A stretch of DNA of 64,000 nt from Stutzerimonas azotifigens (GTDB taxonomy: Bacteria; Pseudomonadota; Gammaproteobacteria; Pseudomonadales; Pseudomonadaceae), in NCBI RefSeq assembly GCF_013522725.1, contig NZ_JAAMRF010000007.1, positions 124,001 to 188,000 on the forward strand, given 5' to 3'. Every line of letters begins with the position of its first letter. The stretch's first letter is position 1. This document shows, piece by piece, positions 36,510-43,318 of this stretch. A program made the translations under genes and the position numbers. Below the pieces are notes generated by a model, which was not told where the DNA came from, did no database searches, and was given only the letters and a program-made list of their open reading frames with translations.

Positions 36510-36520
36510 GGGTGGCCGAT

Positions 36521-37225
36521 ATGTTGAAAGTTAGCGTTTATCGCTACAACCCGGATCAGGACGAAAAACCGTTCATGCAGGACTTCCAGGTCAATACCGA
36601 CGGTAAAGACGTGATGGTTCTGGATGTGCTGGCGCTCATCAAGGAGCAAGATCAGGGTTTCTCCTACCGTCGTTCCTGCCGTGAAGGTGTCTGCGGTTCC
36701 GACGGCATGAACATCAACGGTAAGAACGCGCTGGCTTGTATCACGCCGCTGTCGGCAGTGGTCAAGGGCGACCGGCTGGTGGTTCGTCCCCTGCCTGGGC
36801 TGCCTGTCATCCGCGACCTGGTCGTGGATATGGGCATCTTCTACAAGCAGTATGAAAAAGTTCGTCCGTATCTGATGAACGATACCCCGGCTCCTGCTAT
36901 CGAACGACTGCAAACGCCGGAAGATCGCGAGAAGCTGGATGGCCTGTACGAGTGCATCCTGTGCGCATGCTGCTCCACCAGCTGCCCTTCGTTCTGGTGG
37001 AACCCCGACAAGTTCCTCGGCCCGGCGGCCCTGCTTCAGGCTTACCGCTTCCTGGCGGATAGCCGCGACACCCGCACCGAAGAGCGTCTGGCGTCGATGG
37101 ACGATCCGTTCAGTGTCTTCCGCTGCCGCGGAATCATGAACTGCGTCAGCGTTTGTCCGAAAGGGTTGAACCCGACCAAGGCCATTGGTCACGTGCGCAA
37201 CATGCTGCTGCAAAGCGGTACTTGA
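36521..37225 (+). CDS. sdhB: Succinate dehydrogenase iron-sulfur subunit
   Basis: 234 residues from ATG 36521; the in-frame GTG 36512 would add three residues and is less favoured. The [2Fe-2S] ligands are C53, C58, Asp61 and C73 (SCREGVCGSDG...C), the same Cys/Asp pattern as E. coli. C145, C148, C151 and C155 (CILCACCSTSC) and the later CRGIMNCVSVCPKG supply the [4Fe-4S] and [3Fe-4S] clusters. It relays electrons from FAD to the membrane quinone. A 282-base structured gap separates it from sucA. Confidence 0.97.
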   Translation: MLKVSVYRYNPDQDEKPFMQDFQVNTDGKDVMVLDVLALIKEQDQGFSYRRSCREGVCGSDGMNINGKNALACITPLSAVVKGDRLVVRPLPGLPVIRDLVVDMGIFYKQYEKVRPYLMNDTPAPAIERLQTPEDREKLDGLYECILCACCSTSCPSFWWNPDKFLGPAALLQAYRFLADSRDTRTEERLASMDDPFSVFRCRGIMNCVSVCPKGLNPTKAIGHVRNMLLQSGT

Positions 37226-37507
37226 TAACATCTCCGGTCGCCGTGGCGAGTCTTGCCGCGGCAGCCACCAGGGGGTGGATGTAACACCTGCGGCGCCGAT
37301 GTCCTCGGCGCCGTAGTTTTAGCCGGAAACCGGGCTCAAAAAGCTCGGGATTCGCCTTGAAATCGATGACCAGCAGGGGCATCCGGGCTGGTACCCGGAC
37401 TATCTGCGGGGCCCGTAGTGGCTTGGTCGAGTCGCTGCCTCAGCACTCAGGCAAGTCATGCTGCGGTTTCCACGCCGGTGGTGTCCCCTTATAGAGGGTG
37501 ACCAAGC
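37226..37507 (+). ncRNA. Candidate structured leader upstream of sucA (sucA-II-like)
   Basis: 282 bases between sdhB and sucA. Hairpins visible: CCACC/GGTGG (37265-37277); CGGCGCCGA-TGTCC-TCGGCGCCG (37291-37313) followed by TAGTTTTA, which looks like an attenuator or weak terminator; and TCCGGG-CTGGTA-CCCGGA (37382-37399), which competes with ACCAG...CTGGT (37369-37392). A conserved RNA motif named sucA-II is known from this position in pseudomonads. I place the gap there by context only; the covariance match was not tested. Confidence 0.4.
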
Positions 37508-40339
37508 ATGCAAGAAAGCGTAATGCAGCGCATGTGGAACAGTGCCCACCTATCCGGTGGAAACGCTGCCTATGTGGAAGAGCTTTATGAGCTCTACCTG
37601 CACGATCCCAACGCTGTGCCAGAGGAATGGCGCACCTACTTCCAGAAGCTTCCCACCGATGGTGGCGCCGCGACCGACGTGTCGCATTCGACCATTCGCG
37701 ATCATTTCGTCCTGCTGGCCAAAAACCGCAACCGTGCCCAGCCGATATCGGCAGGCAGCGTCAGCAGCGAGCACGAGAAGAAACAGGTCGAAGTGCTGCG
37801 ATTGATCCATGCCTATCGTCTGCGTGGTCATCAGGCAGCCCAACTTGATCCTCTAGGCCTCGCCCAGCGTCCCGTTCCCGCCGATCTGTCGATCAATCAT
37901 TACGCCCTCACCGACGCGGATCTCGACACGGTATTCCGTACCGGTGATCTGGCCCTCGGCAAGGACGAAGCGACCCTGCGTGAAATTCACCAGGCGTTGA
38001 AGGAAACCTATTGCTCGACCATCGGTGCGGAATTCACCCACATCGTCGATTCCGAGCAGCGCAGCTGGTTCCAGCAGCGTCTCGAAAGCGTGCGCGGTCG
38101 CCCATCCTTTTCCGGTGAAGCGAAGAGCCATCTGCTTGAGCGTCTGACCGCCGCGGAAGGTCTGGAAAAGTATCTGGGCACCAAGTACCCGGGTACCAAG
38201 CGATTCGGCCTGGAAGGCGGCGAAAGCTTGATTCCGCTGCTCGATGAAGTCATCCAGCGCTCCGGTTCCTACGGCACCAAGGAAATCGTCATTGGCATGG
38301 CCCACCGTGGCCGCCTGAACGTTCTGGTCAATACCTTCGGCAAGAACCCGCGCGATCTGTTCGATGAGTTCGAAGGCAAGAAGGTCGAAGGCCTGAGCTC
38401 CGGTGACGTCAAATATCACCAGGGTTTCTCCTCCAATGTCATGACCGCTGGTGGCGAAGTGCACCTGGCGCTGGCATTCAACCCGTCCCACCTGGAGATC
38501 GTTTCTCCGGTGGTCGAAGGGTCTGTTCGAGCTCGCCAGGATCGCCGTACCGATGCGATCGGCGACAAGGTACTGCCTGTCACCATTCACGGCGATGCGG
38601 CCGTGGCCGGGCAGGGCGTGGTGATGGAAACCTTCCAGATGTCGCAGACCCGTGCGTATCGCACAGGTGGCACCATCCGGATTGTGATCAACAACCAGGT
38701 CGGCTTCACCACCAACAAGCAGGAAGATGCGCGTTCGACTGAATACGCAACCGACGTCGCGAAGATGATTCAGGCGCCGATCCTGCACGTTAACGGTGAT
38801 GATCCGGAAGCCGTGCTGTTCGTCACTCAGCTGGCGGTCGACTACCGCATGCAGTTCAAGCGCGACGTGGTCATCGATCTGATGTGCTATCGCCGTCGTG
38901 GTCACAACGAGGCCGACGAGCCCAGCGGTACCCAGCCCCTGATGTATCAGAAGATCACCAAACAGCGCACCACCCGTGAGCTGTATGCCGATGCGCTGAT
39001 CCAGAGCAGCGTGCTCGATGCAAGCCAGGTCCAGGCCAAGGTCGATGAGTATCGCGATGCGCTGGACAACGGTCTGCACGTGGTCAAGAGCCTGGTCAAG
39101 GAGCCCAACAAGGAACTGTTCGTCGATTGGCGTCCCTACCTCGGGCATGCCTGGACTGCGCGCCACGACACCCGTTTCGATCTGAAAACGCTGCAGGACC
39201 TGTCAGGCAAGTTGCTGGAGACGCCAGAAAGCTTCGTCGTTCAGCGTCAGGTCTCCAAGATTCTTGAAGACCGCCAGAAGATGGGCGCCGGTGCGCTGCC
39301 GATCAACTGGGGCTACGCCGAGACCATGGCCTACGCAACTCTGTTGTTCGAAGGCCATCCCGTGCGTATCACAGGTCAGGACGTTGGCCGCGGCACCTTC
39401 TCGCACCGCCACGCGGCGCTGCACAACCAGAAGGACGGCAGCACCTACATCCCGCTACAGCATCTCTATGAAGGGCAGCCACGCTTCGACCTGTACGACT
39501 CCTTCCTTTCCGAAGAGGCGGTACTGGCGTTCGAGTACGGCTACGCCACCACCATGCCTAACGCGCTGGTGATCTGGGAAGCGCAGTTCGGCGACTTCGC
39601 CAACGGTGCCCAGGTGGTGATCGACCAGTTCATCACCAGCGGCGAGCACAAGTGGGGCCGCCTGTGCGGTCTGACCATGCTGTTGCCGCATGGCTATGAA
39701 GGGCAGGGGCCGGAGCACTCGTCCGCACGTCTGGAGCGCTACCTGCAGCTGTGCGCCGAGCACAACATTCAGGTTTGCGTGCCGACCACCCCGGCGCAGG
39801 TCTACCACATGCTCCGTCGTCAGGTGATCCGTCCGCTGCGCAAGCCGCTGGTCGCGTTGACGCCCAAGTCGTTGCTGCGCCACAAGCTGGCGACCTCGAC
39901 GCTCGAAGACCTCACCGAAGGCTCGTTCCAGACGGTGATCCCGGAAATCGACTCGCTCGATCCGGCGAAGGTCGAACGCTTGATCCTGTGCAGTGGCAAG
40001 GTCTACTACGATCTGCTGGACAAGCGTCGCAACGAGGGGCGTGAAGACATCGCCATTGTGCGCATCGAGCAGCTGTATCCGTTCCCGGAAGACGATCTGG
40101 CCGAGGTGCTCGCGCCTTACCAGAACCTCAAGCACATCGTCTGGTGCCAGGAAGAGCCGATGAACCAGGGCGCCTGGTACTGCAGCCAGCATCACATGCG
40201 GCGCGTGGCGACGGCGTTCAAGCAGGAGCTGTTCCTCGAGTACGCCGGGCGCGATGCGTCTGCCTCGCCTGCCGTCGGTTATGCCTCAAAGCATGCCGAG
40301 CAGCAGGAGAAGTTGCTGCAGGACGCGTTCACCGTTTAA
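37508..40339 (+). CDS. sucA: 2-oxoglutarate dehydrogenase E1 component
   Basis: 943 residues, standard for the family. The N-terminal segment [23 protein letters not shown], the [10 protein letters not shown] loop and the thiamine diphosphate/Mg segment [12 protein letters not shown]...[17 protein letters not shown] are present. The C-terminal half carries the transketolase-like pyrimidine domain ([14 protein letters not shown]). E1 decarboxylates 2-oxoglutarate and passes the succinyl group to the lipoyl arm of SucB. RBS GAGGGTG at 37494-37500. An alternative start ATG 37523 exists but the longer N-terminus is the conserved one. Confidence 0.97.
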
Positions 40340-43169: not shown

Positions 43170-43318
43170 AACAATAAGAAACCATGGACGGCGGCCCGTC
43201 GTGCTTTCGCGAGCACCGCGGAATGCCGTCGGACTGTCACTTGGGTGCAGTCACAAGGTGGCGCGGCATGTAGTGCAGCGCCGAAATGCGCGATACCAAA
43301 CGAAGACGGTAGATAAGC
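43170..43318 (+). ncRNA. Candidate structured leader upstream of sucC (sucC-motif-like)
   Basis: 149-base gap between lpd and sucC. Hairpins visible: GTGCT...AGCAC (43201-43216); GACTG(T)CAC-TTGG-GTGCAGTC (43232-43252, with a bulged T); and GGCGC...GCGCC, which brackets the end of the gap. The sucC RNA motif, described in Pseudomonas, lies in exactly this context. Assignment rests on position plus visible pairing; a covariance search is the deciding test. Confidence 0.4.

Follow-up and report, generated by a model that had tools for sequence, protein, structure and literature searches.

The sucA-II RNA (Rfam RF01758) was described by Weinberg et al. (2010, PMC2864571) in Pseudomonadales as a probable RNA and probable cis-regulator, with a question mark ('?') entered for riboswitch. 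This agrees with the first-pass annotation of the locus studied here, according to which the ligand of sucA-II is not established; since no ligand is known, membership of sucA-II among riboswitches is not established either. Our literature search found no sucA-II paper after that of Weinberg et al., and no functional study, ligand or mechanism. Another family, the sucA RNA (Rfam; Burkholderiales and relatives), is also a leader of sucA and has been reported in Burkholderia (PMC6321483). Translational riboswitches in which the 3′ strand of P1 is an anti-Shine-Dalgarno strand would work much as proposed below for sucA-II, with one strand choosing either the P1 stem or the ribosome site.

Analysis was carried out on a 64,000-nucleotide stretch of Stutzerimonas azotifigens DNA, hereafter referred to as the window, whose numbering is used throughout. 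The sdhB gene, identified by NCBIfam, occupies positions 36512-37225. The presumed regulated gene, sucA, coding for 2-oxoglutarate dehydrogenase E1, follows at 37508..40339 on the forward strand (NCBIfam NF006914, 1399 bits; TIGR00239, 1297 bits). As sdhB has its stop at 37225 and sucA has its ATG start codon at 37508, the gap is 37226-37507, just as first annotated. Its description as structured also stood: the predicted fold of 37226-37540 has an energy of −148.6 kcal/mol (z = −4.28) that none of 100 dinucleotide shuffles equalled, and for 37288-37510 (z = −3.73) none of 200 shuffles did.

The gap had been proposed to hold a candidate sucA-II leader, and a search of the window with the Rfam sucA-II covariance model bore this out. 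The match covers 37288..37504 on the forward strand and the full length of the model (positions 1-217 of 217), with a cmscan score of 144.3 bits (E 8e-33), twice the gathering score of 70. The element stands directly 5′ of sucA, and its conserved P1/P2 fold shows compensatory changes. This is an ordinary sucA-II RNA, with gene and bacterial group identical to those published and nothing essential that differs. Since both the family and its location were known already, it is not a discovery; the RNA family, the gene and the bacterial range were all published in 2010, which makes the finding itself ordinary. New here are a model in which P1 competes with a hairpin over the Shine-Dalgarno sequence, and evidence against an alternative pairing proposed earlier. 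The only Rfam matches in the window were sucA-II and the sucC RNA (RF01759); the Burkholderiales sucA RNA was without a match among those listed. For the 5′ part, CcsR1 and tfoR were considered and rejected, their scores (20.5 and 16.7 bits) being far under the gathering scores.

RF01758 was present in 377 of 398 sampled genomes of the window's family, taken to be Pseudomonadaceae from the published range of the RNA, in 17 of 19 genera, and in 54 of the 56 genomes of the window's genus, where the two misses are genomes 71-73% complete. In a sample of 244 genomes of the order, no match fell outside the family. A core covariance model (R1), built from an alignment that included divergent relatives, was searched over the order and the class. 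Over the order it again gave no match outside the family, and over the class it gave one weak match (20.4 bits) in a neighbourhood without sucA, which we took as chance. By RNA or SucA search 203 leaders were fetched, and all 203 have the order sdhB, leader, sucA in the same orientation, with a median gap of 252 nt. Leaders of genus g116 are divergent and score about 50-71 bits, under or near the Rfam threshold. In genus g117 leaders score 27-51 bits or are unmatched by RF01758, so that the Rfam model misses most of the genus; in its unmatched leaders L099-L102 and L198-L202, P1 (AGGGAUA pairing with UAUCUCU) and P2 are nevertheless visible. In genus g123 the gap between sdhB and sucA seems to be of another kind. 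Leaders L105 and L106 of this genus carry an AT-rich terminator-like hairpin directly 3′ of sdhB (AATGCCTCTTATAATAAGAGGCATTTTTTT in L106) and match the core model weakly, at 15-20 bits.

The features of the element all lie on the forward strand. In an alignment of 71 leaders at most 90% alike (A1), the covarying helices were P1 (AGGGGCA with UGUCCCCU) and P2 (CCGGG with CCCGG). The 5′ strand of P1, at 37375..37381, is itself Shine-Dalgarno-like, and its 3′ strand, at 37482..37489, has U37484 bulged; in leaders L082 and L090 an inserted A gives this otherwise bulged U a partner. Four of the seven P1 pairs are changed on both sides, for example G-C to A-U at 37378/37486 and C-G to U-A at 37380/37483, while on the tree no single P1 pair has enough co-changes to reach significance (p 0.06-1). 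P2, at 37382..37399, is a hairpin in which UCCGGG and CCCGGA enclose the loop CUGGUA; 98.6% of cells are paired and three of five counted pairs are changed on both sides. Taking P1 and P2 together (12 pairs), 95.8% of cells are standard, compared with 42-74% for slid versions, and seven pairs are changed on both sides versus 2.6 in shuffles (0/500). The P3 arm with its variable extension (37400..37481) comes from the fold; at its base 96% of pairs are standard, and every change there is one-sided. A second hairpin within the Rfam model (37324..37354) is found in both the fold and the Rfam consensus structure. A background-corrected covariation ranking of the whole alignment is dominated by misaligned divergent sequences and serves as a rough guide only. 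In it, one column pair of a possible GCAG/CUGC pseudoknot, which would link P3 to the conserved segment 5′ of P1, ranked 23 of 10,931, but the neighbouring pair was broken 10 times and the pseudoknot was rejected.

The sequence UCCCCU (37484-37489), within the 3′ strand of P1, is also complementary to the sucA Shine-Dalgarno sequence GAGGG at 37494..37498. Partition functions predicted the resulting Shine-Dalgarno hairpin with a probability above 0.5 in 62 of the 71 diverse leaders, P2 as formed in 58 and P1 above 0.5 in 6; a mostly unpaired Shine-Dalgarno sequence was predicted in none of the 71. Forcing P1 to form had a computed median cost of 4.6 kcal/mol (IQR 3.2-6.5; 7.1 in the window). 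It left the Shine-Dalgarno sequence more exposed in 53 of 70 leaders, a gain that is partly built in, because P1 and the Shine-Dalgarno hairpin share a strand. These energy models leave out tertiary contacts, protein binding and co-transcriptional folding. Among the 25 scorable predicted starts of the window, local pairing of the Shine-Dalgarno sequence is strongest at sucA (0.96, the next being 0.73). Local pairing exceeded 0.7 in 7 of 12 representatives, and with shuffled upstream sequence it exceeded 0.5 in 14% of trials. The tree test gave the Shine-Dalgarno hairpin no compensatory changes of its own, since both its sides hardly vary. The P1 3′ strand has to pair with a 5′ strand rich in G; its ability to pair with the Shine-Dalgarno sequence, G-rich too, may partly be a by-product of this.

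Within the window's genus, a CUCC strand always goes with an AAGG Shine-Dalgarno sequence (34 of 38 leaders) and CCCC with GAGGG (4 of 38). The window and three other leaders keep GGGGC/CCCC/GAGGG, the form common outside the genus. Most of the genus (L006, L041-L068 and others) has GGAGC/CUCC/GAAGG, all three parts having changed together, and three leaders are intermediate, with GGGGC facing CUCC through a G-U pair. The change of both P1 strands and the Shine-Dalgarno sequence was concerted, though it may have been a single event.

We favour, with modest confidence, the view that sucA-II is a cis-acting 5′ leader of sucA that controls the start of translation through competition between P1 and the Shine-Dalgarno hairpin. 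In this model, pairing of UCCCCU with GAGGG would form a small hairpin and block the ribosome (OFF). If UCCCCU paired instead with AGGGGCA, the putative anti-anti-Shine-Dalgarno strand, P1 would become the closing helix of a three-way junction whose other arms are P2 and P3; since the 3′ strand of P1 is the anti-Shine-Dalgarno strand, this would free the ribosome site (ON). Unaided, the RNA is predicted to rest in the OFF hairpin; both this ground state and the energy gap are computed quantities. Were the P1 junction stabilised by some signal, for instance a metabolite or a protein, translation of sucA would be switched on independently of sdhCDAB, with which it presumably shares a transcript. 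We infer the direction of switching, the putative ligand and co-transcription with sdh; a decoupling of sucA from sdh expression is plausible. A helix kept by evolution and disfavoured by predicted energy, whose competitor masks the ribosome site, is what one would expect of a translational ON switch. Almost all Pseudomonas relatives retain the element ahead of the gene for a branch-point enzyme of central carbon and nitrogen metabolism, and the model makes it directly testable with simple mutants.

The competition thus placed between P1 and the Shine-Dalgarno-hiding hairpin is the likely one for sucA-II on the computed folds, and it was absent from the first-pass annotation, which had the P2 pairing UCCGGG/CCCGGA alternate with ACCAG/CUGGU. 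Both pairings are present in the window and, as nested hairpins, exclude each other: the segment ACCAGC just 5′ of P1 (37369..37374) is conserved, and its ACCAG can pair with CUGGU of the P2 loop (37388-37392), a hairpin found in the minimum free-energy fold of 37288-37510. The first pairing is conserved with compensatory changes, as described above, whereas relatives do not preserve the second. Its covariation score did exceed those of all shuffles and slid versions, with 78.9% of cells paired; two measures robust to relatedness, however, were ordinary against shuffles (120/500 and 162/500), and on a sucA gene tree of 166 leaders the pair was broken 48 times and kept 20 times. The ACCAG hairpin also has a probability above 0.5 in just 4 of 71 relatives, and several have the CUGGU loop replaced, once by UUCG. 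With ordinary robust measures and breaks that outnumber kept changes, ACCAG/CUGGU is unsupported as a conserved alternative across the 71 and 166 leaders scored, and a switch built on it is very improbable. Another reading starts from the 5′ hairpin at 37288..37316, the element affecting the stability or processing of the transcript between sdhB and sucA, either by protecting the 3′ end of sdhCDAB mRNA or by partial termination, and the remainder being a passive leader. The fold gives this hairpin a stem of 12 pairs (strands CUGCGGCGCCGA and UCGGCGCCGUAG) and not the 9 bp first annotated, so that TAG belongs to the stem and the tail is UUUUA. A hairpin of at least 8 bp is kept in 145 of 166 distinct leaders despite its changing sequence (116 distinct stems), and in the window UUUU follows it. 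There is, however, no conserved U-tract, 14 of the 145 hairpin-bearing leaders having five or more T among the eight bases that follow, and a consensus scan found no terminator and no sigma-70 promoter; the hairpin is not a clear intrinsic terminator. As a role in processing would also leave the covarying, conserved P1 and P2 beside the start codon unexplained, we regard this reading as unlikely.

If translation is controlled through P1, as we favour, the signal may be of either kind. A metabolite linked to 2-oxoglutarate or succinyl-CoA metabolism could stabilise the P1-P2-P3 junction, pull UCCCCU off the Shine-Dalgarno sequence and raise SucA relative to Sdh, which would make sucA-II a translational ON riboswitch; we put this forward tentatively and think it rather less than probable. 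The main rival to a metabolite signal is a protein partner. Here sucA-II would be a structured translation leader that senses no metabolite and is bound either by a subunit of the 2-oxoglutarate dehydrogenase complex, in autoregulation, or by a global regulator (for example RsmA or Hfq/Crc). Restriction to one bacterial family and one gene is commoner for protein-binding and autoregulatory leaders than for metabolite riboswitches, and many relatives have an A-rich region 5′ of P1. The conserved core, however, in which the long-range P1 pairing closes a junction of several helices, goes beyond a simple protein site in complexity, and we consider a protein-bound leader possible, if doubtful.

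In genome G354 (L203/L204), sucA appeared as two overlapping pieces (222-943 and 1-240) with no single frame, and therefore contains a frameshift or a sequencing error. The sucC RNA of the window, at 43250-43317, precedes sucC and scores 59.1 bits (gathering score 50); it differs from sucA-II in family and gene, and gives the TCA gene cluster a second orphan Rfam leader RNA.
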